Source: Styela clava
Taxonomy: Eukaryota; Chordata; Ascidiacea; Stolidobranchia; Styelidae
NCBI RefSeq assembly: GCF_964204865.1
Contig: NC_135254.1
Coordinates: 2,361,001 to 2,425,000, forward strand
Direction: 5' to 3'
Length of the DNA stretch: 64,000 bases
The first letter of the stretch is position 1, and every line of letters begins with the position of its first letter. The translations under genes were made by a program, and so were the position numbers. Of the stretch, positions 11,171 through 64,000 are shown piece after piece. The notes below the pieces were generated by a model, which worked only from the letters and a program-made list of their open reading frames with translations, had not been told where the DNA came from and did not search any database.

Positions 11171-11174
11171 AAGT

Positions 11175-11417: not shown

Positions 11418-11419
11418 TA

Positions 11420-14025: not shown

Positions 14026-14030
14026 CTACA

Positions 14031-15007: not shown

Positions 15008-15077
15008 AAGCAAAAGTTTTCTATCTTGGCGTTTATGCTTCAATACTTAACCATAATAAAATAATTTTTAAGGCATA

Positions 15078-17333: not shown

Positions 17334-17352
17334 AACACACCCAAACGAGGAT

Positions 17353-17394
17353 CAATACGGCCACAACTAATGAAAGCAACGTGGCCGCTCATTG
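17353..17394 (-). other. Stem-loop downstream of U1 (repeated in every unit)
   Basis: CGGCCAC (17358-17364) and GTGGCCG (17381-17387) pair around a 16-base loop, with CAAT/ATTG outside. It begins 55 bp beyond the U1 3' end. I could not find a clear match to the vertebrate 3' box between U1 and this hairpin. Some units break the stem (for example near 18131, 18900 and 21138), so a role in 3' processing is unproven. Confidence 0.4.
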
Positions 17395-17441
17395 ACTTAA
17401 CCCGTAAGCCAACAGGATATTGGTAGTGAGCAAATATATAA

Positions 17442-17604
17442 AAGGGATAGCGCGAACGCAGTCCCCACTAGCAGAAATTACACGACCGAGTTATCCACAT
17501 TTGGGATAATCGCTAGGGTCAATTTAGTCTGGGTGCAATGACTAAACCTCGCCTAGGCAGAACCGCCTTTGTGATCGCGGTTGACTGCCTCGTCAGGTAA
17601 GTAT
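17442..17604 (-). ncRNA. U1: U1 snRNA, copy 1 (reference for the array)
   Basis: U1 snRNA is the core of the U1 snRNP, which base-pairs with 5' splice sites in the nucleus. The RNA starts AUACUUACCUG, complementary to the splice donor CAGGUAAGUAU. Stem I pairs 15-20 with 45-50 and 23-28 with 39-44 under loop GAUCACAAAG (29-38), the U1-70K site. Stem II (59-65 with 76-82) carries the U1A loop AUUGCACCCA (66-75). Stem III is 96-101 with 109-114. The Sm site AAUUUCUG is at 126-133. Stem IV has GCG-UUCG-CGC at 146-155. Length is about 163 nt against 164 in human. Consensus sequence; upstream form K. It is the copy nearest the transposon flank, and its upstream region carries a private change (ATGACAGAG at 17792). 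Confidence 0.97.
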
Positions 17605-17652
17605 GATTTGTGACGATTGGTTACGCATCATGAATGAATGTTCTATGCTAAG

Positions 17653-17674
17653 TGTTGAGAAGAACTTCTCAACA
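17653..17674 (-). promoter_or_regulatory. Palindromic upstream element, candidate PSE (repeated in every intact unit)
   Basis: This lies 49-70 bp upstream of the U1 start, at the distance where metazoan snRNA genes carry the proximal sequence element that recruits SNAPc. In copy 1 it is a 10-bp-arm inverted repeat around AA (form K). In every copy it lies at the same offset. Form N breaks one arm base; form G moves the centre but keeps perfect arms, 11 bp long. No TATA box is seen near -30, as expected for polymerase II snRNA promoters. That it is the PSE is inferred from position only. Confidence 0.45.
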
Positions 17675-18203
17675 TTAAAAACGATATGTGCAAAAGTTGC
17701 AATTTTAATTGATTCGTCTGTGGGTAACGTGGAATACGATTCATTGCGTTCACTCTTTTATGTGATACATCGCGAGTTCTTTGCCATCCGATGACAGAGT
17801 GAAGTTGAACAACTTTACAAAAAATAGCAGGACCAGGGGGTGGAATATTAAACTATAAACAAAGAGCCGCAGCTACGATACGTACCTTAAACAGGGAATA
17901 ATGATATTTCCGAATCTTGGCGCTCATTCTATTGCTCAATCAATGGCAACACAATCTGAATGTGAAACTGCAAACAAGGAATCAATCTAAAGACGGTTGG
18001 ATAAAGGGCTAACTTGGATAATGGCAAGGCATGTCATGGACTAATATCAATAAATAAATTAATAAATGGATTGTAAGATTGGTCATGTGGAATTTAACAC
18101 ACCCAAACGAGGATCAATACGGCCACAACTAATGAAAGCAACGTTGCCGCTCATTGACTTAACTCGTAAGCCAACAGGATATTGGTAGTGAGCAAATATA
18201 TAA

Positions 18204-18366
18204 AAGGGATAGCGCGAACGCAGTCCCCACTAGCAGAAATTACACGACCGAGTTATCCACATTTGGGATAATCGCTAGGGTCAATTTAGTCTGGGTGCAA
18301 TGACTAAACCTCGCCTAGGCAGAACCGCCTTTGTGATCGCGGTTGACAGCCTCGTCAGGTAAGTAT
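18204..18366 (-). ncRNA. U1: U1 snRNA, copy 2
   Basis: A19U, breaking the A19-U46 pair of stem I. Upstream form G. Shares both with copies 10 and 12. Confidence 0.95.
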
Positions 18367-18954
18367 GACTTGTTACGATTGGTTACGCATCATGAATGAA
18401 TGTTCTATGCTAAATGTTGAGAAGAAGTTCTCAACATTAAAAACGATATGTGCAAAAGTTGCAATTTTAATTGATTCGTCTGTGGGTAACGTGGAATACG
18501 ATTCATTGCGTTCACCCTTTTATGTGATACATCGCGAGTTCTTTGCCATCCGATGGCAGAGTGAAGTTGAACAACTTTACAAAAAATAGCAAGGACCAGG
18601 GGGTGGTATATTAAACTATAAACAATGAGCCGCAGCTACGATACGTACCTTAAACATGGAATAATGATATTTCCGAATCTTGGCGCTCATTCTATTGCTC
18701 AATCAATGGCAACACAATCTGAATGTGAAACTGCAAACAAGGAATCAATCTAGAGACGGTTGGATAAAGGGATAACTTGGATAATGGCAAGGCATGTCAT
18801 GGACTAATATCAATAAATGGATTGTAAGATTGGTCATGAGAAAGATAACACACCCAAACGAGGATCAATACGGCCACAATTAATGAAAGCAACGTGGCCA
18901 CTCATTGACTTAACACGTAAGCCAACAAGATATTGGTAGTGAGCAAATATATAA

Positions 18955-19117
18955 AAGGGATAGCGCGAACGCAGTCCCCACTAGCAGAAATTACACGACC
19001 GAGTTATCCACATTTGGGATAATCGCTAGGGTCAATTTAGTCTGGGTGCAATGACTAAACCTCGCCTAGGCAGAACCGCCTTTGTGATCGCGGTTGACTG
19101 CCTCGTCAGGTAAGTAT
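18955..19117 (-). ncRNA. U1: U1 snRNA, copy 3
   Basis: Consensus RNA; upstream form N. The downstream hairpin has lost its terminal pair (GTGGCCA). Confidence 0.95.
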
Positions 19118-19717
19118 GATTTGTGACGATTGGTTACGCATCATGAATGAATGTTCTATGCTAAGTGTTGAGAATAACTTCTCAACATTAAAAACGATAT
19201 GTGCAAAAGTTGCAATTTTAATTGATTCGTCTGTGGGTAACGTGGAATACGATTCATTGCGTTCACTCTTTTATGTGATACATCGCGAGTTCTTTGCCAT
19301 CCGATGGCAGAGTGAAGTTGAACAACTTTACAAAAAATAGCAAGGACCAGGGGGTGGAATATTAAACTATAAACAATGAGCCGCAGCTACGATAAGTACC
19401 TTAAACAGGGAATAATGATATTTCCGAATCTTGGCGCTCATTCTATTGCTCAATCAATGGCAACACAATCTGAATGTGAAACTGCAAACAAGGAATCAAT
19501 CTAGAGACGGTTGGATAAAGGGATAACTTGGATAATGGCAAGGCATGTCATGGACTAATATCAATAAATAAATTAATAAATGGATTGTAAGATTGGTCAT
19601 GAGAAATTTAACACACCCAAACGAGGATCAATACGGCCACAACTAATGAAAGCAACGTGGCCGCTCATTGACTTAACCCGTAAGCCAACAGGATATTGGT
19701 AGTGAGCAAATATATAA

Positions 19718-19880
19718 AAGGGATAGCGCGAACGCAGTCCCCACTAGCAGAAATTACACGACCGAGTTATCCACATTTGGGATAATCGCTAGGGTCAATT
19801 TAGTCTGGGTGCAATGACTAAACCTCGCCTAGGCAGAACCGTCTTTGTGATCGCGGTTGACTGCCTCGTCAGGTAAGTAT
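19718..19880 (-). ncRNA. U1: U1 snRNA, copy 4
   Basis: G39A, breaking the pair that closes loop I (C28-G39). Upstream form K. Same variant in copy 14. Confidence 0.95.
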
Positions 19881-20468
19881 GATTTGTGACGATTGGTTAC
19901 GCATCATGTATGAATGTTCTATGCTAAGTGTTGAGAAGAACTTCTCAACATTAAAAACGATATGTGCAAAAGTTGCAATTTTAATTGATTCGTCTGTGGG
20001 TAACGTGGAATACGATTCATTGCGTTCACTCTTTTATGTGATACATCGCGAGTTCTTTGCCATCCGATGGCAGAGTGAAGTTGAACAACTTTACAAAAAA
20101 TAGCAAGGACCAGGGGGTGGAATATTAAACTATAAACAATGAGCCGCAGCTACGATAAGTACCTTAAACAGGGAATAATGATATTTCCGAATCTTGGCGC
20201 TCATTCTATTGCTATATCAATGGCAACACAATCTGAATGTGAAACTGCAAACAAGGAATCAATCTAGAGACGGTTGGATAAAGGGATAACTTGGATAATG
20301 GCAAGGCATGTCATGGACCAATATCAATAAATGGATTGTAAGATTGGTCATGAGAAAGATAACACACCCAAACGAGGATCAATACGGCCACAACTAATGA
20401 AAGCAACGTGGCCGCTCATTGACTTAACTCGTAAGCCAACAAGATATTGGTAGTGAGCAAATATATAA

Positions 20469-20631
20469 AAGGGATAGCGCGAACGCAGTCCCCACTAGCA
20501 GAAATTACACGACCGAGTTATCCACATTTGGGATAATCGCTAGGGTCAATTTAGTCTGGGTGCAATGACTAAACCTCGCCTAGGCAGAACCGCCTTTGTG
20601 ATTGCGGTTGACTGCCTCGTCAGGTAAGTAT
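20469..20631 (-). ncRNA. U1: U1 snRNA, copy 5
   Basis: G29A at the first base of the U1-70K loop; shared with copies 7, 15 and 23. Upstream form N. Confidence 0.95.
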
Positions 20632-21219
20632 GATTTGTGACGATTGGTTACGCATCATGAATGAATGTTCTATGCTAAGTGTTGAGAATAACTTCTCAAC
20701 ATTAAAAACGATATGTGCAAAAGTTGCAATTTTAATTGATTCGTCTGTGGGTAACGTGGAATACGATTCATTGCGTTCACTTTTTTATGTGATACATCGC
20801 GAGTTCTTTGCCATCCGATGGCAGAGTGAAGTTGAACAACTTTACAAAAAATAGCAAGGACCAGGGGGTGGAATATTAAACTATAAACAATGAGCCGCAG
20901 CTACGATACGTACCTTAAACATGGAATAATGATATTTCCGAATCTTGGCGCTCATTCTATTGCTCAATCAATGGCAACACAATCTGAATGTGAAACTGCA
21001 AACAAGGAATCAATCTAGAGACTGTTGGATAAAGGGATAACTTGGATAATGGCAAGGCATGTCATGGACTAATATCAATAAATGGATTGTAAGATTGGTC
21101 ATGAGAAAGATAACACACCCAAACGAGGATCAATACGGCCAAAACTAATGAAAGCAACGTGGCCGCTCATTGACTTAACTCGTAAGCCAACAAGATATTG
21201 GTAGTGAGCAAATATATAA

Positions 21220-21382
21220 AAGGGATAGCGCGAACGCAGTCCCCACTAGCAGAAATTACACGACCGAGTTATCCACATTTGGGATAATCGCTAGGGTCAA
21301 TTTAGTCTGGGTGCAATGACTAAACCTCGCCTAGGCAGAACCGCCTTTGTGATCGCGGTTGACTGCCTCGTCAGGTAAGTAT
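21220..21382 (-). ncRNA. U1: U1 snRNA, copy 6
   Basis: Consensus RNA; upstream form K. The downstream hairpin is broken (CGGCCAAAAC near 21138). Confidence 0.95.
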
Positions 21383-21970
21383 GATTTGTGACGATTGGTT
21401 ACGCATCATGTATGAATGTTCTATGCTAAGTGTTGAGAAGAACTTCTCAACATTAAAAACGATATGTGCAAAAGTTGCAATTTTAATTGATTCGTCTGTG
21501 GGTAACGTGGAATACGATTCATTGCGTTCACTCTTTTATGTGATACATCGCGAGTTCTTTGCCATCCGATGGCAGAGTGAAGTTGAACAACTTTACAAAA
21601 AATAGCAAGGACCAGGGGGTGGAATATTAAACTATAAACAAAGAGCCGAAGCTACGATACGTACCTTAAACAGGGAATAATGATATTTCCGAATCTTGGC
21701 GCTCATTCTATTGCTCAATCAATGGCAACACAATCTGAATGTGAAACTGCAAACAAGGAATCAATCTAGAGACGGTTGGATAAAGGGATAACTTGGATAA
21801 TGGCAAGGCATGTCATGGACCAATATCAATAAATGGATTGTAAGATTGGTCATGAGAAATTTAACACACCCAAACGAGGATCAATACGGCCACAACTAAT
21901 GAAAGCAACGTGGCCGCTCATTGACTTAACTCGTAAGCCAACAAGATATTGGTAGTGAGCAAATATATAA

Positions 21971-22133
21971 AAGGGATAGCGCGAACGCAGTCCCCACTAG
22001 CAGAAATTACACGACCGAGTTATCCACATTTGGGATAATCGCTAGGGTCAATTTAGTCTGGGTGCAATGACTAAACCTCGCCTAGGCAGAACCGCCTTTG
22101 TGATTGCGGTTGACTGCCTCGTCAGGTAAGTAT
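21971..22133 (-). ncRNA. U1: U1 snRNA, copy 7
   Basis: G29A in loop I; upstream form N. With copy 8 it repeats the copy 5-6 pair 1,502 bp further on. Confidence 0.95.
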
Positions 22134-22721
22134 GATTTGTGACGATTGGTTACGCATCATGAATGAATGTTCTATGCTAAGTGTTGAGAATAACTTCTCA
22201 ACATTAAAAACGATATGTGCAAAAGTTGCAATTTTAATTGATTCGTCTGTGGGTAACGTGGAATACGATTCATTGCGTTCACTTTTTTATGTGATACATC
22301 GCGAGTTCTTTGCCATCCGATGGCAGAGTGAAGTTGAACAACTTTACAAAAAATAGCAAGGACCAGGGGGTGGAATATTAAACTATAAACAATGAGCCGC
22401 AGCTACGATACGTACCTTAAACATGGAATAATGATATTTCCGAATCTTGGCGCTCATTCTATTGCTCAATCAATGGCAACACAATCTGAATGTGAAACTG
22501 CAAACAAGGAATCAATCTAGAGACTGTTGGATAAAGGGATAACTTGGATAATGGCAAGGCATGTCATGGACTAATATCAATAAATGGATTGTAAGATTGG
22601 TCATGAGAAAGATAACACACCCAAACGAGGATCAATACGGCCAAAACTAATGAAAGCAACGTGGCCGCTCATTGACTTAACTCGTAAGCCAACAAGATAT
22701 TGGTAGTGAGCAAATATATAA

Positions 22722-22884
22722 AAGGGATAGCGCGAACGCAGTCCCCACTAGCAGAAATTACACGACCGAGTTATCCACATTTGGGATAATCGCTAGGGTC
22801 AATTTAGTCTGGGTGCAATGACTAAACCTCGCCTAGGCAGAACCGCCTTTGTGATCGCGGTTGACTGCCTCGTCAGGTAAGTAT
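22722..22884 (-). ncRNA. U1: U1 snRNA, copy 8
   Basis: Consensus RNA; upstream form K. Downstream hairpin broken as in copy 6. Confidence 0.95.
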
Positions 22885-23472
22885 GATTTGTGACGATTGG
22901 TTACGCATCATGTATGAATGTTCTATGCTAAGTGTTGAGAAGAACTTCTCAACATTAAAAACGATATGTGCAAAAGTTGCAATTTTAATTGATTCGTCTG
23001 TGGGTAACGTGGAATACGATTCATTGCGTTCACTCTTTTATGTGATACATCGCGAGTTCTTTGCCATCCGATGGCAGAGTGAAGTTGAACAACTTTACAA
23101 AAAATAGCAAGGACCAGGGGGTGGAATATTAAACTATAAACAAAGAGCCGCAGCTACGATACGTACCTTAAACAGGGAATAATGATATTTCCGAATCTTG
23201 GCGCTCATTCTATTGCTCAATCAATGGCAACACAATCTGAATGTGAAACTGCAAACAAGGAATCAATCTAGAGACGGTTGGATAAAGGGATAACTTGGAT
23301 AATGGCAAGGCATGTCATGGACCAATATCAATAAATGGATTGTAAGATTGGTCATGAGAAATTTAACACACCCAAACGAGGATCAATACGGCCACAACTA
23401 ATGAAAGCAACGTGGCCGCTCATTGACTTAACTCGTAAGCCAACAAGATATTGGTAGTGAGCAAATATATAA

Positions 23473-23635
23473 AAGGGATAGCGCGAACGCAGTCCCCACT
23501 AGCAGAAATTACACGACCGAGTTATCCACATTTGGGATAATCGCTAGGGTCAATTTAGTCTGGGTGCAATGACTAAACCTCGCCTAGGCAGAACCGCCTT
23601 TGTGATCGCGGTTGACTGCCTCGTCAGGTAAGTAT
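23473..23635 (-). ncRNA. U1: U1 snRNA, copy 9
   Basis: Consensus RNA; upstream form N. Confidence 0.95.
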
Positions 23636-24223
23636 GATTTGTGACGATTGGTTACGCATCATGAATGAATGTTCTATGCTAAGTGTTGAGAATAACTTCT
23701 CAACATTAAAAACGATATGTGCAAAAGTTGCAATTTTAATTGATTCGTCTGTGGGTAACGTGGAATACGATTCATTGCGTTCACTTTTTTATGTGATACA
23801 TCGCGAGTTCTTTGCCATCCGATGGCAGAGTGAAGTTGAACAACTTTACAAAAAATAGCAAGGACCAGGGGGTGGAATATTAAACTATAAACAATGAGCC
23901 GCAGCTACGATAAGTACCTTAAACAGGGAATAATGATATTTCCGAATCTTGGCGCTCATTCTATTGCTATATCAATGGCAACACAATCTGAATGTGAAAC
24001 TGCAAACAAGGAATCAATCTAGAGACGGTTGGATAAAGGGATAACTTGGATAATGGCAAGGCATGTCATGGACTAATATCAATAAATGGATTGTAAGATT
24101 GGTCATGAGAAAGATAACACACCCAAACGAGGATCAATACGGCCACAACTAATGAAAGCAACGTGGCCGCTCATTGACTTAACTCGTAAGCCAACAAGAT
24201 ATTGGTAGTGAGCAAATATATAA

Positions 24224-24386
24224 AAGGGATAGCGCGAACGCAGTCCCCACTAGCAGAAATTACACGACCGAGTTATCCACATTTGGGATAATCGCTAGGG
24301 TCAATTTAGTCTGGGTGCAATGACTAAACCTCGCCTAGGCAGAACCGCCTTTGTGATCGCGGTTGACAGCCTCGTCAGGTAAGTAT
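24224..24386 (-). ncRNA. U1: U1 snRNA, copy 10
   Basis: A19U in stem I; upstream form G. With copy 11 it forms a dimer duplicated as copies 12-13. Confidence 0.95.
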
Positions 24387-24974
24387 GACTTGTTACGATT
24401 GGTTACGCATCATGAATGAATGTTCTATGCTAAATGTTGAGAAGAAGTTCTCAACATTAAAAACGATATGTGCAAAAGTTGCAATTTTAATTGATTCGTC
24501 TGTGGGTAACGTGGAATACGATTCATTGCGTTCACCCTTTTATGTGATACATCGCGAGTTCTTTGCCATCCGATGGCAGAGTGAAGTTGAACAACTTTAC
24601 AAAAAATAGCAAGGACCAGGGGGTGGTATATTAAACTATAAACAATGAGCCGCAGCTACGATACGTACCTTAAACATGGAATAATGATATTTCCGAATCT
24701 TGGCGCTCATTCTATTGCTCAATCAATGGCAACACAATCTGAATGTGAAACTGCAAACAAGGAATCAATCTAGAGACGGTTGGATAAAGGGATAACTTGG
24801 ATAATGGCAAGGCATGTCATGGACTAATATCAATAAATGGATTGTAAGATTGGTCATGAGAAAGATAACACACCCAAACGAGGATCAATACGGCCACAAT
24901 TAATGAAAGCAACGTGGCCACTCATTGACTTAACACGTAAGCCAACAAGATATTGGTAGTGAGCAAATATATAA

Positions 24975-25137
24975 AAGGGATAGCGCGAACGCAGTCCCCA
25001 CTAGCAGAAATTACACGACCGAGTTATCCACATTTGGGATAATCGCTAGGGTCAATTTAGTCTGGGTGCAATGACTAAACCTCGCCTAGGCAGAACCGCC
25101 TTTGTGATCGCGGTTGACTGCCTCGTCAGGTAAGTAT
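24975..25137 (-). ncRNA. U1: U1 snRNA, copy 11
   Basis: Consensus RNA; upstream form N. Downstream hairpin end pair lost, as in copies 3 and 13. Confidence 0.95.
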
Positions 25138-25725
25138 GATTTGTGACGATTGGTTACGCATCATGAATGAATGTTCTATGCTAAGTGTTGAGAATAACTT
25201 CTCAACATTAAAAACGATATGTGCAAAAGTTGCAATTTTAATTGATTCGTCTGTGGGTAACGTGGAATACGATTCATTGCGTTCACTTTTTTATGTGATA
25301 CATCGCGAGTTCTTTGCCATCCGATGGCAGAGTGAAGTTGAACAACTTTACAAAAAATAGCAAGGACCAGGGGGTGGAATATTAAACTATAAACAATGAG
25401 CCGCAGCTACGATAAGTACCTTAAACAGGGAATAATGATATTTCCGAATCTTGGCGCTCATTCTATTGCTATATCAATGGCAACACAATCTGAATGTGAA
25501 ACTGCAAACAAGGAATCAATCTATAGACGGTTGGATAAAGGGATAACTTGGATAATGGCAAGGCATGTCATGGACTAATATCAATAAATGGATTGTAAGA
25601 TTGGTCATGAGAAAGATAACACACCCAAACGAGGATCAATACGGCCACAACTAATGAAAGCAACGTGGCCGCTCATTGACTTAACTCGTAAGCCAACAAG
25701 ATATTGGTAGTGAGCAAATATATAA

Positions 25726-25888
25726 AAGGGATAGCGCGAACGCAGTCCCCACTAGCAGAAATTACACGACCGAGTTATCCACATTTGGGATAATCGCTAG
25801 GGTCAATTTAGTCTGGGTGCAATGACTAAACCTCGCCTAGGCAGAACCGCCTTTGTGATCGCGGTTGACAGCCTCGTCAGGTAAGTAT
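25726..25888 (-). ncRNA. U1: U1 snRNA, copy 12
   Basis: A19U in stem I; upstream form G. Lies 7,522 bp from copy 2 and begins a repeat of the copy 2-6 series. Confidence 0.95.
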
Positions 25889-26476
25889 GACTTGTTACGA
25901 TTGGTTACGCATCATGAATGAATGTTCTATGCTAAATGTTGAGAAGAAGTTCTCAACATTAAAAACGATATGTGCAAAAGTTGCAATTTTAATTGATTCG
26001 TCTGTGGGTAACGTGGAATACGATTCATTGCGTTCACCCTTTTATGTGATACATCGCGAGTTCTTTGCCATCCGATGGCAGAGTGAAGTTGAACAACTTT
26101 ACAAAAAATAGCAAGGACCAGGGGGTGGTATATTAAACTATAAACAATGAGCCGCAGCTACGATACGTACCTTAAACATGGAATAATGATATTTCCGAAT
26201 CTTGGCGCTCATTCTATTGCTCAATCAATGGCAACACAATCTGAATGTGAAACTGCAAACAAGGAATCAATCTAGAGACGGTTGGATAAAGGGATAACTT
26301 GGATAATGGCAAGGCATGTCATGGACTAATATCAATAAATGGATTGTAAGATTGGTCATGAGAAAGATAACACACCCAAACGAGGATCAATACGGCCACA
26401 ATTAATGAAAGCAACGTGGCCACTCATTGACTTAACACGTAAGCCAACAAGATATTGGTAGTGAGCAAATATATAA

Positions 26477-26639
26477 AAGGGATAGCGCGAACGCAGTCCC
26501 CACTAGCAGAAATTACACGACCGAGTTATCCACATTTGGGATAATCGCTAGGGTCAATTTAGTCTGGGTGCAATGACTAAACCTCGCCTAGGCAGAACCG
26601 CCTTTGTGATCGCGGTTGACTGCCTCGTCAGGTAAGTAT
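26477..26639 (-). ncRNA. U1: U1 snRNA, copy 13
   Basis: Consensus RNA; upstream form N; counterpart of copy 3. Confidence 0.95.
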
Positions 26640-27239
26640 GATTTGTGACGATTGGTTACGCATCATGAATGAATGTTCTATGCTAAGTGTTGAGAATAAC
26701 TTCTCAACATTAAAAACGATATGTGCAAAAGTTGCAATTTTAATTGATTCGTCTGTGGGTAACGTGGAATACGATTCATTGCGTTCACTCTTTTATGTGA
26801 TACATCGCGAGTTCTTTGCCATCCGATGGCAGAGTGAAGTTGAACAACTTTACAAAAAATAGCAAGGACCAGGGGGTGGAATATTAAACTATAAACAATG
26901 AGCCGCAGCTACGATAAGTACCTTAAACAGGGAATAATGATATTTCCGAATCTTGGCGCTCATTCTATTGCTCAATCAATGGCAACACAATCTGAATGTG
27001 AAACTGCAAACAAGGAATCAATCTAGAGACGGTTGGATAAAGGGATAACTTGGATAATGGCAAGGCATGTCATGGACTAATATCAATAAATAAATTAATA
27101 AATGGATTGTAAGATTGGTCATGAGAAATTTAACACACCCAAACGAGGATCAATACGGCCACAACTAATGAAAGCAACGTGGCCGCTCATTGACTTAACC
27201 CGTAAGCCAACAGGATATTGGTAGTGAGCAAATATATAA

Positions 27240-47632: not shown

Positions 47633-47795
47633 AAGGGATAGCGCGAACGCAGTCCCCACTAGCAGAAATTACACGACCGAGTTATCCACATTTGGGATAA
47701 TCGCTAGGGTCAATTTAGTCTGGGTGCAATGACTAAACCTCGCCTAGGCAGAACCGCCTTTGTGATCGCGGTCGACTGCCTCGTCAGGTAAGTAT
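47633..47795 (-). ncRNA. U1: U1 snRNA, copy 41
   Basis: A23G wobble in stem I; form N, the last form-N copy. Counterpart of copy 29, 9,083 bp away. The next unit to the right lacks U1. Confidence 0.95.
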
Positions 47796-48245
47796 GATTT
47801 GTGACGATTGGTTACGCATCATGAATGAATGTTCTATGCTAAGTGTTGAGAATAACTTCTCAACATTAAAAACGATATGTGCAAAAGTTGCAATTTTAAT
47901 TGATTCGTCTGTGGGTAACGTGGAATACGATTCATTGCGTTCACTTTTTTATGTGATACATCGCGAGTTCTTTGCCATCCGATGGCAGAGTGAAGTTGAA
48001 CAACTTTACAAAAAATAGCAAGGACCAGGGGGTGGAATATTAAACTATAAACAATGAGCCGCAGCTACGATAAGTACCTTAAACAGGGAATAATGATATT
48101 TCCGAATCTTGGCGCTCATTCTATTGCTATATCAATGGCAACACAATCTGAATGTGAAACTGCAAACAAGGAATCAATCTAGAGACGGTTGGATAAAGGG
48201 ATAACTTGGATAATGGCAAGGCATGTCATGGACTAATATCAATAA

Positions 48246-48720
48246 ATGGATTGTAAGATTGGTCATGAGAAATTTAACACACCCAAACGAGGATCAATAC
48301 GGCCACAACTAATGAAAGCAACGTGGCCGCTCATTGACTTAACTCGTAAGCCAACAGACGTACAATACGATTCATTGCGTTCACTCTTTTATGTGATACA
48401 TCGCGAGTTCTTTGCCATCCGATGGCAGAGTGAAGTTGAACAACTTTACAAAAAATAGCAAGGACCAGGGGGTGGAATATTAAACTATAAACAAAGAGCC
48501 GCAGCTACGATACGTACCTTAAACAGGGAATAATGATATTTCCGAATCTTGGCGCTCATTCTATTGCTCAATCAATGGCAACACAATCTGAATGTGAAAC
48601 TGCAAACAAGGAATCAATCTAGAGACGGTTGGATAAAGGGCTAACTTGGATAATGGCAAGGCATGTCATGGACTAATATCAATAAATAAATTAATAAATG
48701 GATTGTAAGATTGGTCATGA
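48246..48720. repeat. Array unit that has lost its U1 gene
   Basis: At 48356-48358 the spacer sequence GTAAGCCAACA, which normally runs on to the U1 3' end, jumps directly to ACGTACAATACG, normally about 126 bp upstream of the U1 start. About 311 bp are gone: the whole U1 gene, the candidate promoter element and adjacent spacer. The retained part belongs to the GTACAA type. The distance between copies 41 and 42 is 1,203 bp against 1,514 expected. Confidence 0.93.
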
Positions 48721-48835
48721 GAAATTTAACACACCCAAACGAGGATCAATACGGCCACAACTAATGAAAGCAACGTGGCCGCTCATTGACTTAACTCGTA
48801 AGCCAACAAGATATTGGTAGTGAGCAAATATATAA

Positions 48836-48998
48836 AAGGGATAGCGCGAACGCAGTCCCCACTAGCAGAAATTACACGACCGAGTTATCCACATTTGGGA
48901 TAATCGCTAGGGTCAATTTAGTCTGGGTGCAATGACTAAACCTCGCCTAGGCAGAACCGCCTTTGTGATCGCGGTTGACTGCCTCGTCAGGTAAGTAT
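48836..48998 (-). ncRNA. U1: U1 snRNA, copy 42
   Basis: Consensus RNA; form K. Private upstream changes (TATGTTAAGTG near 49037, TTTTGATTG near 49097). From here to the window end every copy has form K. Confidence 0.95.
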
Positions 48999-53538: not shown

Positions 53539-54137
53539 GATTTGTGACGATTGGTTACGCATCATGAATGAATGTTCTATGCTAAGTGTTGAGAAGAACT
53601 TCTCAACATTAAAAACGATATGTGCAAAAGTTGCAATTTTAATTGATTCGTCTGTGGGTAACGTGGAATACGATTCATTGCGTTCACTCTTTTATGTGAT
53701 ACATCGCGAGTTCTTTGCCATCCGATGGCAGAGTGAAGTTGAACAACTTTACAAAAAATAGCAGGACCAGGGGGTGGAATATTAAACTATAAACAAAGAG
53801 CCGCAGCTACGATACGTACCTTAAACAGGGAATAATGATATTTCCGAATCTTGGCGCTCATTCTATTGCTCAATCAATGGCAACACAATCTGAATGTGAA
53901 ACTGCAAACAAGGAATCAATCTAGAGACGGTTGGATAAAGGGCTAACTTGGATAATGGCAAGGCATGTCATGGACTAATATCAATAAATAAATTAATAAA
54001 TGGATTGTAAGATTGGTCATGAGAAATTTAACACACCCAAACGAGGATCAATACGGCCACAACTAATGAAAGCAACGTGGCCGCTCATTACCTTAACTCG
54101 TAAGCCAACAAGATATTGGTAGTGAGCAAATATATAA

Positions 54138-54300
54138 AAGGGATAGCGCGAACGCAGTCCCCACTAGCAGAAATTACACGACCGAGTTATCCACATTTGG
54201 GATAATCGCTAGGGTCAATTTAGTCTGGGTGCAATGACTAAACCTCGCCTAGGCAGAACCGCCTTTGTGATCGCGGTTGACTGCCTCGTCAGGTAAGTAT
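54138..54300 (-). ncRNA. U1: U1 snRNA, copy 49
   Basis: Consensus RNA; form K; counterpart of copy 47 at 1,513 bp. Confidence 0.95.
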
Positions 54301-54888
54301 GATTTGTGACGATTGGTTACGCATCATGAATGAATGTTCTATGCTAAGTGTTGAGAAGAACTTCTCAACATTAAAAACGATATGTGCAAAAGTTGCAATT
54401 TTAATTGATTCGTCTGTGGGTAACGTGGAATACGATTCATTGCGTTCACTCTTTTATGTGATACATCGCGAGTTCTTTGCCATCCGATGGCAGAGTGAAG
54501 TTGAACAACTTTACAAAAAATAGCAAGGACCAGGGGGTGGTATATTAAACTATAAACAATGAGCCGCAGCTACGATACGTACCTTAAACATGGAATAATG
54601 ATATTTCCGAATCTTAGCGCTCATTCTATTGCTCAATCAATGGCAACACAATCTGAATGTGAAACTGCAAACAAGGAATCAATCTAGAGACGGTTGGATA
54701 AAGGGATAACTTGGATAATGGCAAGGCATGTCATGGACTAATATCAATAAATGGATTGTAAGATTGGTCATGAGAAAGATAACACACCCAAACGAGGATC
54801 AATACGGCCACAACTAATGAAAGCAACGTGGCCGCTCATTGACTTAACTCGTAAGCCAACAAGATATTGGTAGTGAGCAAATATATAA

Positions 54889-55051
54889 AAGGGATAGCGC
54901 GAACGCAGTCCCCACTAGCAGAAATTACACGACCGAGTTATCCACATTTGGGATAATCGCTAGGGTCAATTTAGTCTGGGTGCAATGACTAAACCTCGCC
55001 TAGGCAGAACCGCCTTTGTGAACGCGGTTGACTGCCTCGTCAGGTAAGTAT
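54889..55051 (-). ncRNA. U1: U1 snRNA, copy 50
   Basis: A30U in loop I; counterpart of copy 48 at 1,513 bp. Form K. Confidence 0.95.
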
Positions 55052-55650
55052 GATTTGTGACGATTGGTTACGCATCATGAATGAATGTTCTATGCTAAGT
55101 GTTGAGAAGAACTTCTCAACATTAAAAACGATATGTGCAAAAGTTGCAATTTTAATTGATTCGTCTGTGGGTAACGTGGAATACGATTCATTGCGTTCAC
55201 TCTTTTATGTGATACATCGCGAGTTCTTTGCCATCCGATGGCAGAGTGAAGTTGAACAACTTTACAAAAAATAGCAGGACCAGGGGGTGGAATATTAAAC
55301 TATAAACAAAGAGCCGCAGCTACGATACGTACCTTAAACAGGGAATAATGATATTTCCGAATCTTGGCGCTCATTCTATTGCTCAATCAATGGCAACACA
55401 ATCTGAATGTGAAACTGCAAACAAGGAATCAATCTAGAGACGGTTGGATAAAGGGCTAACTTGGATAATGGCAAGGCATGTCATGGACTAATATCAATAA
55501 ATAAATTAATAAATGGATTGTAAGATTGGTCATGAGAAATTTAACACACCCAAACGAGGATCAATACGGCCACAACTAATGAAAGCAACGTGGCCGCTCA
55601 TTACCTTAACTCGTAAGCCAACAAGATATTGGTAGTGAGCAAATATATAA

Positions 55651-55813
55651 AAGGGATAGCGCGAACGCAGTCCCCACTAGCAGAAATTACACGACCGAGT
55701 TATCCACATTTGGGATAATCGCTAGGGTCAATTTAGTCTGGGTGCAATGACTAAACCTCGCCTAGGCAGAACCGCCTTTGTGATCGCGGTTGACTGCCTC
55801 GTCAGGTAAGTAT
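55651..55813 (-). ncRNA. U1: U1 snRNA, copy 51
   Basis: Consensus RNA; form K; third unit of the 1,513-bp dimer series. Confidence 0.95.
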
Positions 55814-56401
55814 GATTTGTGACGATTGGTTACGCATCATGAATGAATGTTCTATGCTAAGTGTTGAGAAGAACTTCTCAACATTAAAAACGATATGTGC
55901 AAAAGTTGCAATTTTAATTGATTCGTCTGTGGGTAACGTGGAATACGATTCATTGCGTTCACTCTTTTATGTGATACATCGCGAGTTCTTTGCCATCCGA
56001 TGGCAGAGTGAAGTTGAACAACTTTACAAAAAATAGCAAGGACCAGGGGGTGGTATATTAAACTATAAACAATGAGCCGCAGCTACGATACGTACCTTAA
56101 ACATGGAATAATGATATTTCCGAATCTTAGCGCTCATTCTATTGCTCAATCAATGGCAACACAATCTGAATGTGAAACTGCAAACAAGGAATCAATCTAG
56201 AGACGGTTGGATAAAGGGATAACTTGGATAATGGCAAGGCATGTCATGGACTAATATCAATAAATGGATTGTAAGATTGGTCATGAGAAAGATAACACAC
56301 CCAAACGAGGATCAATACGGCCACAACTAATGAAAGCAACGTGGCCGCTCATTGACTTAACTCGTAAGCCAACAAGATATTGGTAGTGAGCAAATATATA
56401 A

Positions 56402-56564
56402 AAGGGATAGCGCGAACGCAGTCCCCACTAGCAGAAATTACACGACCGAGTTATCCACATTTGGGATAATCGCTAGGGTCAATTTAGTCTGGGTGCAATG
56501 ACTAAACCTCGCCTAGGCAGAACCGCCTTTGTGATCGCGGTGGACTGCCTCGTCAGGTAAGTAT
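56402..56564 (-). ncRNA. U1: U1 snRNA, copy 52
   Basis: A23C, breaking A23-U44 in stem I; same in copy 57. Form K. Private upstream AGGGAGTAATG shared with copy 57. Confidence 0.95.
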
Positions 56565-57163
56565 GATTTGTGACGATTGGTTACGCATCATGAATGAATG
56601 TTCTATGCTAAGTGTTGAGAAGAACTTCTCAACATTAAAAACGATATGTGCAAAAGTTGCAATTTTAATTGATTCGTCTGTGGGTAACGTGGAATACGAT
56701 TCATTGCGTTCACTCTTTTATGTGATACATCGCGAGTTCTTTGCCATCCGATGGCAGAGTGAAGTTGAACAACTTTACAAAAAATAGCAGGACCAGGGGG
56801 TGGAATATTAAACTATAAACAAAGAGCCGCAGCTACGATACGTACCTTAAACAGGGAGTAATGATATTTCCGAATCTTGGCGCTCATTCTATTGCTCAAT
56901 CAATGGCAACACAATCTGAATGTGAAACTGCAAACAAGGAATCAATCTAGAGACGGTTGGATAAAGGGCTAACTTGGATAATGGCAAGGCATGTCATGGA
57001 CTAATATCAATAAATAAATTAATAAATGGATTGTAAGATTGGTCATGAGAAATTTAACACACCCAAACGAGGATCAATACGGCCACAACTAATGAAAGCA
57101 ACGTGGCCGCTCATTGACTTAACTCGTAAGCCAACAAGATATTGGTAGTGAGCAAATATATAA

Positions 57164-57326
57164 AAGGGGTAGCGCGAACGCAGTCCCCACTAACAGAAAT
57201 TACACGACCGAGTTATCCACATTTGGGATAATCGCTAGGGTCAATTTAGTCTGGGTGCAATGACTAAACCTCGCCTAGGCAGAACCGCCTTTGTGATCGC
57301 GGTTGACTGCCTCGTCAGGTAAGTAT
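57164..57326 (-). ncRNA. U1: U1 snRNA, copy 53
   Basis: U158C at the foot of stem IV and C134U after the Sm site; same pair in copy 58. Form K; upstream ACGACATGTG. Confidence 0.95.
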
Positions 57327-57926
57327 GATTTGTGACGATTGGTTACGCATCATGAATGAATGTTCTATGCTAAGTGTTGAGAAGAACTTCTCAACATTAA
57401 AAACGACATGTGCAAAAGTTGCAATTTTAATTGATTCGTCTGTGGGTAACGTGGAATACGATTCATTGCGTTCACTCTTTTATGTGATACATCGCGAGTT
57501 CTTTGCCATCCGATGGCAGAGTGAAGTTGAACAACTTTACAAAAAATAGCAAGGACCAGGGGGTGGAATATTAAACTATAAACAAAGAGCCGCAGCTACG
57601 ATACGTACCTTAAACAGGGAATAATGATATTTCCGAATCTTGGCGCTCATTCTATTGCTCAATCAATGGCAACACAATCTGAATGTGAAACTGCAAACAA
57701 GGAATCAATCTAGAGACGGTTGGATAAAGGGCTAACTTGGATAATGGCAAGGCATGTCATGGACTAATATCAATAAATAAATTATTAAATGGATTGTAAG
57801 ATTGGTCATGAGAAATTTAACACACCCAAACGAGGATCAATACGGCCACAACTAATGAAAGCAACGTGGCCGCTCATTGACTTAACTCGTAAGCCAACAA
57901 GATATTGGTAGTGAGCAAATATATAA

Positions 57927-58089
57927 AAGGGATAGCGCGAACGCAGTCCCCACTAGCAGAAATTACACGACCGAGTTATCCACATTTGGGATAATCGCTA
58001 GGGTCAATTTAGTCTGGGTGCAATGACTAAACCTCGTCTAGGCAGAACCGCCTTTGTGATCGCGGTTGACTGCCTCGTCAGGTAAGTAT
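57927..58089 (-). ncRNA. U1: U1 snRNA, copy 54
   Basis: G53A; counterpart of copy 45. Form K. The spacer downstream of it (left side) carries a private AAATTATTAAATGG near 57779. Confidence 0.95.
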
Positions 58090-58677
58090 GATTTGTGACG
58101 ATTGGTTACGCATCATGAATGAATGTTCTATGCTAAGTGTTGAGAAGAACTTCTCAACATTAAAAACGATATGTGCAAAAGTTGCAATTTTAATTGATTC
58201 GTCTGTGGGTAACGTGGAATACGATTCATTGCGTTCACTCTTTTATGTGATACATCGCGAGTTCTTTGCCATCCGATGGCAGAGTGAAGTTGAACAACTT
58301 TACAAAAAATAGCAAGGACCAGGGGGTGGAATATTAAACTATAAACAATGAGCCGCAGCTACGATACGTACCTTAAACAGGGAATAATGATATTTCCGAA
58401 TCTTGGCGCTCATTCTATTGCTCAATCAATGGCAACACAATCTGAATGTGAAACTGCAAACATGGAATCAATCTAGAGACGGTTGGATAAAGGGATAACT
58501 TGGATAATGGCAAGGCATGTCATGGACTAATATCAATAAATGGATTGTAAGATTGGTCATGAGAGAGATAACACACCCAAACGAGGATCAATACGGCCAC
58601 AACTAATGAAAGCAACGTGGCCGCTCATTGACTTAACTCGTAAGCCAACAAGATATTGGTAGTGAGCAAATATATAA

Positions 58678-58840
58678 AAGGGATAGCGCGAACGCAGTCC
58701 CCACTAGCAGAAATTACACGACCGAGTTATCCACATTTGGGATAATCGCTAGGGTCAATTTAGTCTGGGTGCAATGACTAAACCTCGCCTAGGCAGAACC
58801 GCCTTTGTGATCGCGGTTGACTGCCTCGTCAGGTAAGTAT
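58678..58840 (-). ncRNA. U1: U1 snRNA, copy 55
   Basis: Consensus RNA; form K. Private ACAGCGAATAATG in the upstream spacer near 59127. Confidence 0.95.
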
Positions 58841-59439
58841 GATTTGTGACGATTGGTTACGCATCATGAATGAATGTTCTATGCTAAGTGTTGAGAAGAA
58901 CTTCTCAACATTAAAAACGATATGTGCAAAAGTTGCAATTTTAATTGATTCGTCTGTGGGTAACGTGGAATACGATTCATTGCGTTCACTCTTTTATGTG
59001 ATACATCGCGAGTTCTTTGCCATCCGATGGCAGAGTGAAGTTGAACAACTTTACAAAAAATAGCAGGACCAGGGGGTGGAATATTAAACTATAAACAAAG
59101 AGCCGCAGCTACGATACGTACCTTAAACAGCGAATAATGATATTTCCGAATCTTGGCGCTCATTCTATTGCTCAATCAATGGCAACACAATCTGAATGTG
59201 AAACTGCAAACAAGGAATCAATCTAGAGACGGTTGGATAAAGGGCTAACTTGGATAATGGCAAGGCATGTCATGGACTAATATCAATAAATAAATTAATA
59301 AATGGATTGTAAGATTGGTCATGAGAAATTTAACACACCCAAACGAGGATCAATACGGCCACAACTAATGAAAGCAACGTGGCCGCTCATTAACTTAACT
59401 CGTAAGCCAACAAGATATTGGTAGTGAGCAAATATATAA

Positions 59440-59602
59440 AAGGGATAGCGCGAACGCAGTCCCCACTAGCAGAAATTACACGACCGAGTTATCCACATTT
59501 GGGATAATCGCTAGGGTCAATTTAGTCTGGGTGCAATGACTAAACCTCGCCTAGGCAGAACCGCCTTTGTGATCGCGGTTGACTGCCTCGTCAGGTAAGT
59601 AT
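59440..59602 (-). ncRNA. U1: U1 snRNA, copy 56
   Basis: Consensus RNA; form K. The downstream spacer has a private CATTAACTT near 59388. Confidence 0.95.
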
Positions 59603-60190
59603 GATTTGTGACGATTGGTTACGCATCATGAATGAATGTTCTATGCTAAGTGTTGAGAAGAACTTCTCAACATTAAAAACGATATGTGCAAAAGTTGCAA
59701 TTTTAATTGATTCGTCTGTGGGTAACGTGGAATACGATTCATTGCGTTCACTCTTTTATGTGATACATCGCGAGTTCTTTGCCATCCGATGGCAGAGTGA
59801 AGTTGAACAACTTTACAAAAAATAGCAAGGACCAGGGGGTGGTATATTAAACTATAAACAATGAGCCGCAGCTACGATTCGTACCTTAAACATGGAATAA
59901 TGATATTTCCGAATCTTAGCGCTCATTCTATTGCTCAATCAATGGCAACACAATCTGAATGTGAAACTGCAAACAAGGAATCAATCTAGAGACGGTTGGA
60001 TAAAGGGATAACTTGGATAATGGCAAGGCATGTCATGGACTAATATCAATAAATGGATTGTAAGATTGGTCATGAGAAAGATAACACACCCAAACGAGGA
60101 TCAATACGGCCACAACTAATGAAAGCAACGTGGCCGCTCATTGACTCAACTCGTAAGCCAACAAGATATTGGTAGTGAGCAAATATATAA

Positions 60191-60353
60191 AAGGGATAGC
60201 GCGAACGCAGTCCCCACTAGCAGAAATTACACGACCGAGTTATCCACATTTGGGATAATCGCTAGGGTCAATTTAGTCTGGGTGCAATGACTAAACCTCG
60301 CCTAGGCAGAACCGCCTTTGTGATCGCGGTGGACTGCCTCGTCAGGTAAGTAT
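60191..60353 (-). ncRNA. U1: U1 snRNA, copy 57
   Basis: A23C in stem I; counterpart of copy 52 at 3,789 bp. Form K. Confidence 0.95.
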
Positions 60354-60952
60354 GATTTGTGACGATTGGTTACGCATCATGAATGAATGTTCTATGCTAA
60401 GTGTTGAGAAGAACTTCTCAACATTAAAAACGATATGTGCAAAAGTTGCAATTTTAATTGATTCGTCTGTGGGTAACGTGGAATACGATTCATTGCGTTC
60501 ACTCTTTTATGTGATACATCGCGAGTTCTTTGCCATCCGATGGCAGAGTGAAGTTGAACAACTTTACAAAAAATAGCAGGACCAGGGGGTGGAATATTAA
60601 ACTATAAACAAAGAGCCGCAGCTACGATACGTACCTTAAACAGGGAGTAATGATATTTCCGAATCTTGGCGCTCATTCTATTGCTCAATCAATGGCAACA
60701 CAATCTGAATGTGAAACTGCAAACAAGGAATCAATCTAGAGACGGTTGGATAAAGGGCTAACTTGGATAATGGCAAGGCATGTCATGGACTAATATCAAT
60801 AAATAAATTAATAAATGGATTGTAAGATTGGTCATGAGAAATTTAACACACCCAAACGAGGATCAATACGGCCACAACTAATGAAAGCAACGTGGCCGCT
60901 CATTGACTTAACTCGTAAGCCAACAAGATATTGGTAGTGAGCAAATATATAA

Positions 60953-61115
60953 AAGGGGTAGCGCGAACGCAGTCCCCACTAACAGAAATTACACGACCGA
61001 GTTATCCACATTTGGGATAATCGCTAGGGTCAATTTAGTCTGGGTGCAATGACTAAACCTCGCCTAGGCAGAACCGCCTTTGTGATCGCGGTTGACTGCC
61101 TCGTCAGGTAAGTAT
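60953..61115 (-). ncRNA. U1: U1 snRNA, copy 58
   Basis: U158C and C134U; counterpart of copy 53 at 3,789 bp. Form K; upstream ACGACATGTG. Confidence 0.95.
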
Positions 61116-61715
61116 GATTTGTGACGATTGGTTACGCATCATGAATGAATGTTCTATGCTAAGTGTTGAGAAGAACTTCTCAACATTAAAAACGACATGT
61201 GCAAAAGTTGCAATTTTAATTGATTCGTCTGTGGGTAACGTGGAATACGATTCATTGCGTTCACTCTTTTATGTGATACATCGCGAGTTCTTTGCCATCC
61301 GATGGCAGAGTGAAGTTGAACAACTTTACAAAAAATAGCAAGGACCAGGGGGTGGAATATTAAACTATAAACAAAGAGCCGCAGCTACGATACGTACCTT
61401 AAACAGGGAATAATGATATTTCCGAATCTTGGCGCTCATTCTATTGCTCAATCAATGGCAACACAATCTGAATGTGAAACTGCAAACAAGGAATCAATCT
61501 AGAGACGGTTGGATAAAGGGCTAACTTGGATAATGGCAAGGCATGTCATGGACTAATATCAATAAATAAATTAATAAATGGATTGTAAGATTGGTCATGA
61601 GAAATTTAACACACCCAAACGAGGATCAATACGGCCACAACTAATGAAAGCAACGTGGCCGCTCATTGACTTAACTCGTAAGCCAACAAGATATTGGTAG
61701 TGAGCAAATATATAA

Positions 61716-61878
61716 AAGGGATAGCGCGAACGCAGTCCCCACTAGCAGAAATTACACGACCGAGTTATCCACATTTGGGATAATCGCTAGGGTCAATTTA
61801 GTCTGGGTGCAATGACTAAACCTCGCCTAGGCAGAACCGCCTTTGTGATCGCGGTTGACTGCCTCGTCAGGTAAGTAT
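61716..61878 (-). ncRNA. U1: U1 snRNA, copy 59
   Basis: Consensus RNA; form K. Lies 3,789 bp from copy 54 but lacks its G53A, so the 3,789-bp match has ended by this point. Confidence 0.95.
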
Positions 61879-62477
61879 GATTTGTGACGATTGGTTACGC
61901 ATCATGAATGAATGTTCTATGCTAAGTGTTGAGAAGAACTTCTCAACATTAAAAACGATATGTGCAAAAGTTGCAATTTTAATTGATTCGTCTGTGGGTA
62001 ACGTGGAATACGATTCATTGCGTTCACTCTTTTATGTGATACATCGCGAGTTCTTTGCCATCCGATGGCAGAGTGAAGTTGAACAACTTTACAAAAAATA
62101 GCAGGACCAGGGGGTGGAATATTAAACTATAAACAAAGAGCCGCAGCTACGATACGTACCTTAAACAGGGAATAATGATATTTCCGAATCTTGGCGCTCA
62201 TTCTATTGCTCAATCAATGGCAACACAATCTGAATGTGAAACTGCAAACAAGGAATCAATCTAGAGACGGTTGGATAAAGGGCTAACTTGGATAATGGCA
62301 AGGCATGTCATGGACTAATATCAATAAATAAATTAATAAATGGATTGTAAGATTGGTCATGAGAAATTTAACACACCCAAACGAGGATCAATACGGCCAC
62401 AACTAATGAAAGCAACGTGGCCGCTCATTGACTTAACTCGTAAGCCAACAAGATATTGGTAGTGAGCAAATATATAA

Positions 62478-62640
62478 AAGGGATAGCGCGAACGCAGTCC
62501 CCACTAGCAGAAATTACACGACCGAGTTATCCACATTTGGGATAATCGCTAGGGTCAATTTAGTCTGGGTGCAATGACTAAACCTCGCCTAGGCAGAACC
62601 GCCTTTGTGATCGCGGTTGACTGCCTCGTCAGGTAAGTAT
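62478..62640 (-). ncRNA. U1: U1 snRNA, copy 60
   Basis: Consensus RNA; form K. Confidence 0.95.
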
Positions 62641-63228
62641 GATTTGTGACGATTGGTTACGCATCATGAATGAATGTTCTATGCTAAGTGTTGAGAAGAA
62701 CTTCTCAACATTAAAAACGATATGTGCAAAAGTTGCAATTTTAATTGATTCGTCTGTGGGTAACGTGGAATACGATTCATTGCGTTCACTCTTTTATGTG
62801 ATACATCGCGAGTTCTTTGCCATCCGATGGCAGAGTGAAGTTGAACAACTTTACAAAAAATAGCAAGGACCAGGGGGTGGTATATTAAACTATAAACAAT
62901 GAGCCGCAGCTACGATACGTACCTTAAACATGGAATAATGATATTTCCGAATCTTGGCGCTCATTCTATTGCTCAATCAATGGCAACACAATCTGAATGT
63001 GAAACTGCAAACAAGGAATCAATCTAGAGACGGTTGGATAAAGGGATAACTTGGATAATGGCAAGGCATGTCATGGACTAATATCAATAAATGGATTGTA
63101 AGATTGGTCATGAGAAAGATAACACACCCAAACGAGGATCAATACGGCCACAACTAATGAAAGCAACGTGGCCGCTCATTGACTTAACTCGTAAGCCAAC
63201 AAGATATTGGTAGTGAGCAAATATATAA

Positions 63229-63391
63229 AAGGGATAGCGCGAACGCAGTCCCCACTAGCAGAAATTACACGACCGAGTTATCCACATTTGGGATAATCGC
63301 TAGGGTCAATTTAGTCTGGGTGCAATGACTAAACCTCGCCTAGGCAGAACCGCCTTTGTGATCGCGGGAGACTGCCTCGTCAGGTAAGTAT
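63229..63391 (-). ncRNA. U1: U1 snRNA, copy 61
   Basis: A23U and A24C, breaking two adjacent pairs of upper stem I. Private double change; form K; upstream ACGACATGTG. Confidence 0.95.
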
Positions 63392-63991
63392 GATTTGTGA
63401 CGATTGGTTACGCATCATGAATGAATGTTCTATGCTAAGTGTTGAGAAGAACTTCTCAACATTAAAAACGACATGTGCAAAAGTTGCAATTTTAATTGAT
63501 TCGTCTGTGGGTAACGTGGAATACGATTCATTGCGTTCACTCTTTTATGTGATACATCGCGAGTTCTTTGCCATCCGATGGCAGAGTGAAGTTGAACAAC
63601 TTTACAAAAAATAGCAAGGACCAGGGGGTGGAATATTAAACTATAAACAAAGAGCCGCAGCTACGATACGTACCTTAAACAGGGAATAATGATATTTCCG
63701 AATCTTGGCGCTCATTCTATTGCTCAATCAATGGCAACACAATCTGAATGTGAAACTGCAAACAAGGAATCAATCTAGAGACGGTTGGATAAAGGGCTAA
63801 CTTGGATAATGGCAAGGCATGTCATGGACTAATATCAATAAATAAATTAATAAATGGATTGTAAGATTGGTCATGAGAAATTTAACACACCCAAACGAGG
63901 ATCAATACGGCCACAACTAATGAAAGCAACGTGGCCGCTCATTGACTTAACTCGTAAGCCAACAAGATATTGGTAGTGAGCAAATATATAA

Positions 63992-64000
63992 AAGGGATAG
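63992..64000 (-). ncRNA. U1: U1 snRNA, copy 62 (3' end only)
   Basis: The window stops inside the next unit; only the last bases of stem IV (complement of AAGGGATAG) are present. The spacing from copy 61 and the preceding spacer show that the array continues. Confidence 0.9.

Follow-up and report, generated by a model that had tools for sequence, protein, structure and literature searches.

The 64,000-nt stretch of the Styela clava genome analyzed here (the window; contig NC_135254.1, referred to as C5, positions 2361001-2425000) contains a tandem array of 61 full-length U1 small nuclear RNA (snRNA) genes that continues beyond its right edge. Our preferred interpretation, to which we give about an even chance, is that the window captures one of several genuine arrays holding U1 genes of an "array class," which would belong to a high-output, developmentally separate snRNA set. 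The genome carries such arrays, with copy counts that are lower bounds, two sequence classes each of U1, U2, and U5, constraint and some compensatory changes in the RNAs, and promoters that differ between the classes. The features on which the analysis draws are as follows.

17334..64000 (left end 17334, running beyond the window), minus strand: U1 snRNA tandem array, 61 RF00003 matches, edge placed by self-comparison
17442..17604, minus strand: U1 snRNA gene 1 of 61, 163 nt, 5' end at 17604, RF00003 143.9 bits, model positions 1-166
17605..18203, no strand: representative spacer between genes 1 and 2, 599 bp, without other Rfam match at E<=1
17625..17662 (-21 to -58), minus strand: candidate proximal promoter of gene 1, from the position of an element resembling the proximal sequence element (PSE) and a conserved spacer window
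47796..48835, no strand: expanded spacer belonging to the one 1203-bp unit, partial internal duplication with pairs 440 and 452 bp apart
63229..63391, minus strand: U1 snRNA gene 61 of 61, RF00003 139.9 bits

A preliminary description of this DNA had predicted 61 complete U1 genes on the minus strand, and a cmscan search returned exactly that number of RF00003 matches, all on the minus strand and all full length (model 1-166), scoring 139.4-143.9 bits where the gathering score is 69.5 bits. Self-comparison placed the first base of unit homology at exactly 17334. Start-to-start spacing was 751 bp in 32 of the 60 intervals, 763 bp in 14, 762 bp in 9, 756 bp in 2, 750 bp in 2, and 1203 bp in one, such that the unit length of 750-763 bp proposed initially holds for 59 intervals and fails for the last. 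This long unit (47795-48998) owes its extra length to an internal duplication of part of its spacer; an insertion was considered as the cause and rejected, as the duplication fits instead. No Rfam family other than U1 reached its gathering score in the whole 64-kb window, and none appeared at E up to 1 within positions 1-18400, which include two U1 genes (the other units were scanned at gathering score only), in agreement with the earlier statement that the unit contains no other snRNA. On the plus strand of the array, 63 ATG-initiated open reading frames (ORFs) reach 60 codons or more, and 60 of these are exactly 74 codons long. These copies mirror the repeat and offer no evidence of a gene; a plus-strand protein was therefore rejected, and the early warning that this strand invites false 74-residue proteins was justified. 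The window is free of N bases and contains 17 distinct U1 sequences among its 61 genes and 39 distinct units among 60. Identical units (1203-bp unit excluded, 59 units compared) were most often found 2, 8, 10, and 12 units apart (6, 5, 4, and 4 pairs, respectively), a pattern that unequal exchange would leave had it acted here.

The hallmarks of U1 are well preserved in these genes. The 5' end AUACUUACCUG, which pairs with the 5' splice site, the sequence CAUUGCAC of stem-loop II, and the Sm site UAAUUUCUG between stem-loops III and IV are each present in 61/61 window copies, bearing out what had been read by eye; the AUUGCAC motif of stem-loop II is presumably the U1A/SNF-binding loop. Relative to AAUUUGUGG, which we take to be the usual Sm site, the 3' half is altered in the array copies and likewise in the dispersed U1 class described below. 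GAUCAC was found in 55/61 copies and the UUCG cap that had been attributed to every stem IV in 60/61, one copy lacking it. Gene 1 is predicted to fold at -53.9 kcal/mol (z -2.46), a stability matched by 1 of 200 shuffled sequences. The U1-70K loop of stem-loop I, of consensus GAUCANGAAG, reads GAUCACAAAG in 55 window copies, AAUCACAAAG in 4, and GUUCACAAAG in 2, and the position equivalent to human G34, where G is the usual base, is A in 61/61. The same loop carries GCAG in dispersed copies and, mostly or often, GAAG in the arrays at 3.29, 4.19-4.36, and 4.6 Mb on C5. In the human structure, C33 and G34 are held by stacking between U1-70K side chains and by salt bridges to phosphates, stacking also involves A35, and A29 forms a pair with A36 (PMC4383343). 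Given that these contacts consist of stacking and phosphate salt bridges, lost U1-70K binding does not follow from the presence of A at G34.

The array extends well past the window. Its last U1 copy seen ends at C5:2576006 and none was present in the probe at C5:2605001-2606600, which gives a length of about 198-227 kb from sampled probes. Further U1 loci were found on C5 near 2.73 Mb (plus strand, two copies seen), 3.29 Mb (minus), 3.47-3.53 Mb (plus), 3.70-3.73 Mb (minus), 4.19-4.36 Mb (plus), and 4.585-4.664 Mb (plus), using 20 probes of 10 kb (6 with U1) and 20 of 1.6-6 kb (10 with U1), between which the DNA was not read, together with matches from genome-wide searches. U1 thus occurs at seven or more places on C5, namely, the window array and at least six other loci, on both strands. 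Across the genome (376.6 Mb in 379 contigs), the U1 5'-end pattern ATACTTACCTGNCNNGGC matched 749 times (354 forward and 395 reverse), while its reversed control gave 0 matches; as the pattern recovers 55/61 window genes, U1-like 5' ends must number at least 749. The initial account of a compact tandem U1 array was hence correct but incomplete, the window being only a fraction of a genome-wide set.

Alongside the arrays, a second class of U1 genes was recognized by its own 26-mer, which matches exactly at six sites (one on C2, four on C10, and one on C18) in a search that overlooks dispersed copies with a change inside the 26-mer. The high-copy tandem set is distinct from these dispersed genes, with 749 5'-end matches versus six dispersed-class matches. 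A U1 gene from C10 and the commonest window U1 are 91.5% identical, with 13 differences and one gap, and the differences between the classes fall mostly in stem-loop II with pairing preserved. In an alignment of both classes with 12 rows, of which 10 are distinct, pairing is kept in 99.1% of pair cells, compared with 30-47% in slid controls, and four pairs are changed on both sides, all of them in stem II. Neither the 9 cells with double-sided change nor the covariation score was reached by any of 500 shuffles, figures that are not probabilities given that the rows are related. The recognition core is identical in array and dispersed representatives of U1 (ACUUACCU), U2 (GUAGUA), and U5 (GCCUUUUAC). 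The four dispersed-class U1 genes of C10 share a half-megabase (C10:7.31-7.81 Mb) with ten U4 genes, on both strands.

Constraint was evaluated from the diversity of 143 units, with six U1 arrays weighted equally and one duplicate removed. Diversity across the arrays was 0.031 in U1 versus 0.089 in the spacer, i.e., 2.9-fold lower in the gene, a contrast that points to selection on the array class. When a 163-nt frame was slid around the unit, only one of the 751 frames gave a lower value than the U1 frame, and it was offset by a single base. The most constrained parts of U1 were the 5' end (0.0125) and stem II (0.0165), and the least diverse 22-nt spacer window was located at -42..-21 (window -58..-37 ranked 52/567). 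A satellite or pseudogene would show no constraint on its embedded RNA, which is not what was found across arrays, although the contrast is weak in the window array alone. On the basis of these sequence comparisons, the array U1 RNA and its promoter appear to be held by selection across arrays, as U1 genes rather than mere satellite.

The other spliceosomal snRNAs were surveyed from lists of the best 42-48 scored candidates for each RNA, so that all numbers below are lower bounds and refer to the copies listed. Dispersed U2 copies on C10 and C3 score 171-179 bits, with lesser copies on C10 and C16, whereas a U2 array on C6 (17.53-17.79 Mb) scores 141-154 bits. A 28-mer specific to this array occurs 204 times in the genome (203 forward and 1 reverse; control 0), with a period on C6 of 1169 bp as a rule among 100 places listed. 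U5 forms an array on C13 (6.27-6.47 Mb) and has three further copies on C1; another, on C6, is a third variant that carries a PSE-like element. U4 forms an array on C4 (20.09-20.16 Mb), with one more C4 copy at 19.80 Mb and eleven on C10, ten of which (7.36-7.43 Mb) lie in the half-megabase of the dispersed U1 genes. Finally, 47 of the 48 U6 copies scored lie in an array on C1 (19.46-19.60 Mb) and one is on C4. Array and dispersed representatives are 79.2% identical for U2 and 85.3% for U5. Between three U4 copies from the C4 array and four from C10 there are 9-14 changes over 139 positions, and two U6 array copies differ from the C4 copy by 5 and 3 changes over 107 positions. The two-class plan is thus common to U1, U2, and U5 and less sharp for U4.

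As for U1, the functional cores of the other RNAs are kept in the sampled copies, including GUAGUA in U2, GCCUUUUAC in U5, and AUUUUU-type Sm sites. Double changes were observed in U2 stem IIa (U-A to A-U), in U2 stem III (two), and in the U5 3' stem (three, one between classes and two among dispersed copies). The loop of U2 stem-loop IV reads UAUUGCAGUACC in dispersed U2, presumably the U2B'' site, and CGUUGCACUACA in array U2 (L056-L058), nearer to the U1A-type AUUGCAC. Two identical U2-like copies on C16 (20336777 and 20360662; L080 and L081), 24 kb apart on opposite strands, are of the dispersed class, have altered 5' ends, and show no PSE-like element; they are perhaps retrocopies that were later duplicated. 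The fourth C10 U2 gene is also of the dispersed class with changes, and has a CACCATAA-type element further upstream, at about -67.

Promoters also separate the classes. Gene 1 of the window has a diverged PSE-like element, CTTCTCAACACTTAGCATAGAA, at -58..-37, overlapping the most conserved spacer window (-42..-21) and occupying the same place as in dispersed U1, U2, and U5 genes. The motif CACCACAANNNTTAG, drawn from these same sequences and hence a description rather than an independent test, was found at -60 to -57, with no more than two substitutions, in all 13 dispersed genes examined (six U1, four U2, and three U5; one of the 13 has an inserted base), a count that excludes the two C16 U2 copies, the fourth C10 U2, and the C6 U5. 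Against this motif, the U1 array promoter shows 3 substitutions at -58 and the U5 array promoter 3 substitutions plus a deletion at -57; one U2 array copy shows 4 substitutions at -58, and the other has nothing better than a match at -37. The U4 element has 1-3 mismatches in array copies and 1-2 in C10 copies, and a related U6 element at -65 departs by 3 mismatches in each of two array copies and by 2 in the copy on C4.

According to the preferred interpretation, that of a high-output and developmentally separate set, the promoter of each unit would drive transcription of U1 RNA from the minus strand, and this RNA would fold as a normal U1, complete with a 5' end for pairing with the 5' splice site, the U1A loop, the Sm site, and stem IV. 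Unequal exchange and conversion would build the arrays and keep their copies alike, with selection holding the RNA and the promoter. The U1 arrays, together with the U2, U4, U5, and U6 arrays on other chromosomes, would then constitute a high-output set apart from the smaller dispersed set, most likely used to provide bulk snRNA to oocytes or early embryos while the dispersed genes serve other cells. By analogy with frogs and sea urchins, the most economical role would be that of a set producing large amounts of snRNA when demand is greatest. A further-reaching proposal, which we advance tentatively and consider somewhat unlikely, is that the arrays encode a second spliceosomal snRNA set, with one array system per RNA and chromosome, so that the germline or early embryo would in effect have a stage-specific spliceosome with RNAs of its own, in which the recognition and catalytic cores of U1, U2, and U5 are kept and the peripheral protein-binding stems and promoter element have diverged with partial compensation.

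Several observations weigh against these proposals. The number of double-changed U1 pairs (four) was reached by 68/500 shuffles and the number of further U1 pair types (11) by 491/500. Of the 11-12 pairs predicted for U2 stem III, the folds share only 5, and of the 11-14 predicted for stem IV only 8; the latter has no double change, and both stems are partly remodeled. For U4 and U6 the two classes are little different, the U4 groups are not told apart by model score, and a "second set" is therefore not equally distinct for all five RNAs. The array promoters of U1, U2, and U5 deviate from the consensus of the dispersed genes and could be weak. Genome searches found SNAPC3 at one locus (three matches) and one N-terminal exon of U1-70K, leaving duplicated small nuclear ribonucleoprotein (snRNP) or promoter-factor genes unsupported. 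These searches, in which diverged paralogues could be missed, gave no sign of a second snRNP or promoter-factor protein set, and the single loci argue against fully separate protein machinery.

The remaining adverse observations concern the integrity of the copies and favor a different explanation, which we judge unlikely: the arrays would be satellite-like, an old U1 variant amplified by unequal exchange, mostly silent and decaying, with working U1 supplied by the dispersed genes. A strict test requiring the 5' end, GATCA, CATTGCAC, TAATTT, and all 45 pairs was passed by 31/61 window copies and 55/94 copies of this array, such that many look damaged and the "complete" genes of the preliminary description are complete in length but often not in integrity. 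The other five arrays passed in 2/10, 2/11, 2/4, 5/28, and 2/12 cases, or 13/65 rows (166 rows in total, seven dropped as not alignable without gaps, two 3.29-Mb copies counted twice), and a few copies of other C5 arrays have altered 5' ends. Considered alone, the window array has as high a proportion of variable sites in U1 (16/163) as in the spacer (55/600), though pi is lower in U1 (0.0084 versus 0.0139). A silent satellite would also account for the degraded PSE-like element of the U1, U2, and U5 arrays, and for a mean diversity in the stem I loop (0.088) that equals that of the spacer (0.089). Most of this loop diversity, however, is carried by two positions, human G34 (0.42; A in 88 and G in 55 of 143) and A35 (0.19), with G28 at 0.07 and U30 and C31 invariant in 143/143, so that a loop wholly free of constraint was rejected. 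Enrichment of variable sites in stem-loop I over the rest of U1 was not significant (Fisher p 0.06 and 0.13), stem IV counts in this comparison being inflated by indel-bearing copies. Decay is further opposed by the 2.9-fold lower variability of the U1 frame, by the placement of the best conserved spacer window in the proximal promoter, by the compensation of stem II changes, and by the cores that the U2 and U5 arrays keep too.

It is rather improbable, in our view, that all of these genes form one functional pool, in which arrays would add U1 dosage used together with the dispersed genes in all cells. The core features common to both classes, the single U1-70K and SNAPC3 loci, and the common promoter element kept by the U4 array copies with 1-3 mismatches would suit such a pool, but it does not predict that U1, U2, and U5 arrays have promoter variants of their own and RNAs only 91.5%, 79.2%, and 85.3% identical to the dispersed ones. 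Long arrays are hard to assemble, but an assembly artefact with falsely expanded or misplaced repeats is very improbable given 39/60 distinct window units, a clean non-repeat left flank, no N in the window, copies of differing composition at seven places on the 24.9-Mb C5, and arrays of four other snRNAs elsewhere in the genome.

The flank to the left of the array contains several features of its own. A large imperfect palindrome at 91-6388, with ten inverted arm pairs that are 79-92% complementary and a center near 3.2 kb, is probably a mobile element or inverted duplication. A short tandem repeat lies at 14325-15019 (units of about 165-187 bp, 2-4 copies, 65-85% alike without gaps). It is followed at 15072-17370 by a broken series of plus-strand ORFs with a start that looks zinc-knuckle-like by eye, which ends about where the array begins and is probably a degenerate mobile-element remnant at its edge. 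Pfam searches with eight left-flank ORFs gave only sub-threshold matches to OTU (19.0 bits, cut-off 23.3), an OTU-protease match that belongs to this ORF series, and to T2SSE (11.9 bits, cut-off 24.9).

It has long been known, for decades, that snRNA isoforms switch during development, but those described so far differ little and the purpose is unclear. With U1, U2, and U5 classes that are 8-21% different and have different promoters and organization, Styela clava makes the question of an egg- or embryo-specific spliceosome directly testable. Its arrays also preserve a record of how homogenization and selection have opposed each other across hundreds of functional RNA copies, in which human positions G34 and A35 take up most of the changes in a U1-70K loop that is otherwise kept.

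Embryonic U1 isoforms of frogs differ by only a few bases, and sea urchins have large tandem U1 and U2 sets that are thought to supply the oocyte and early embryo. The likeness to frog and sea urchin arrays noted in the preliminary description is sound in kind. In the comparisons that follow, each cited paper is represented by the part of its text that was used. U1 isoforms are reported to be switched in development in mouse, fly, frog, and sea urchin (PMC4291461). Xenopus assemblies contain about 20 U1 copies in X. tropicalis and 11 plus about 35 in X. laevis, and, as in Styela clava, the multicopy loci of U1 and of U2 lie on separate chromosomes (PMC10361878), and its U1 isoforms are developmentally switched (PMC4291461); Styela clava differs in having at least 749 U1 5' ends at several places and a class-specific promoter element. 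Sea urchins share the large tandem sets. Developmentally regulated U1 isoforms are mentioned for them as well (PMC4291461). In Styela clava, U5, U4, and U6 have arrays too and the U2 classes are only about 79% identical, which may be a difference from sea urchins. Zebrafish likewise has hundreds of snRNA genes, with 297 intact U1 and 654 intact U6, whose organization is absent from the text used (PMC3706591), while the Styela clava copies lie in ordered arrays beside a distinct dispersed class. In ten Lepidoptera, quantitative PCR gave 2-31 U1 copies (PMC8190105). In the tapeworm Caryophyllaeus laticeps, the U1-containing repeat ClatSat13-761 is clustered on one chromosome pair, and the 761 in its name suggests a nearly equal unit length; a two-class system or other snRNA arrays are not mentioned in the text used (PMC12274263). 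A literature search, which misses most subscription papers, found no published arrangement like the present one. Taken together, these comparisons indicate that the kind of arrangement is known, and that copy number, the layout of one array per RNA, and the divergence between classes set the Styela clava genome apart from the systems compared.

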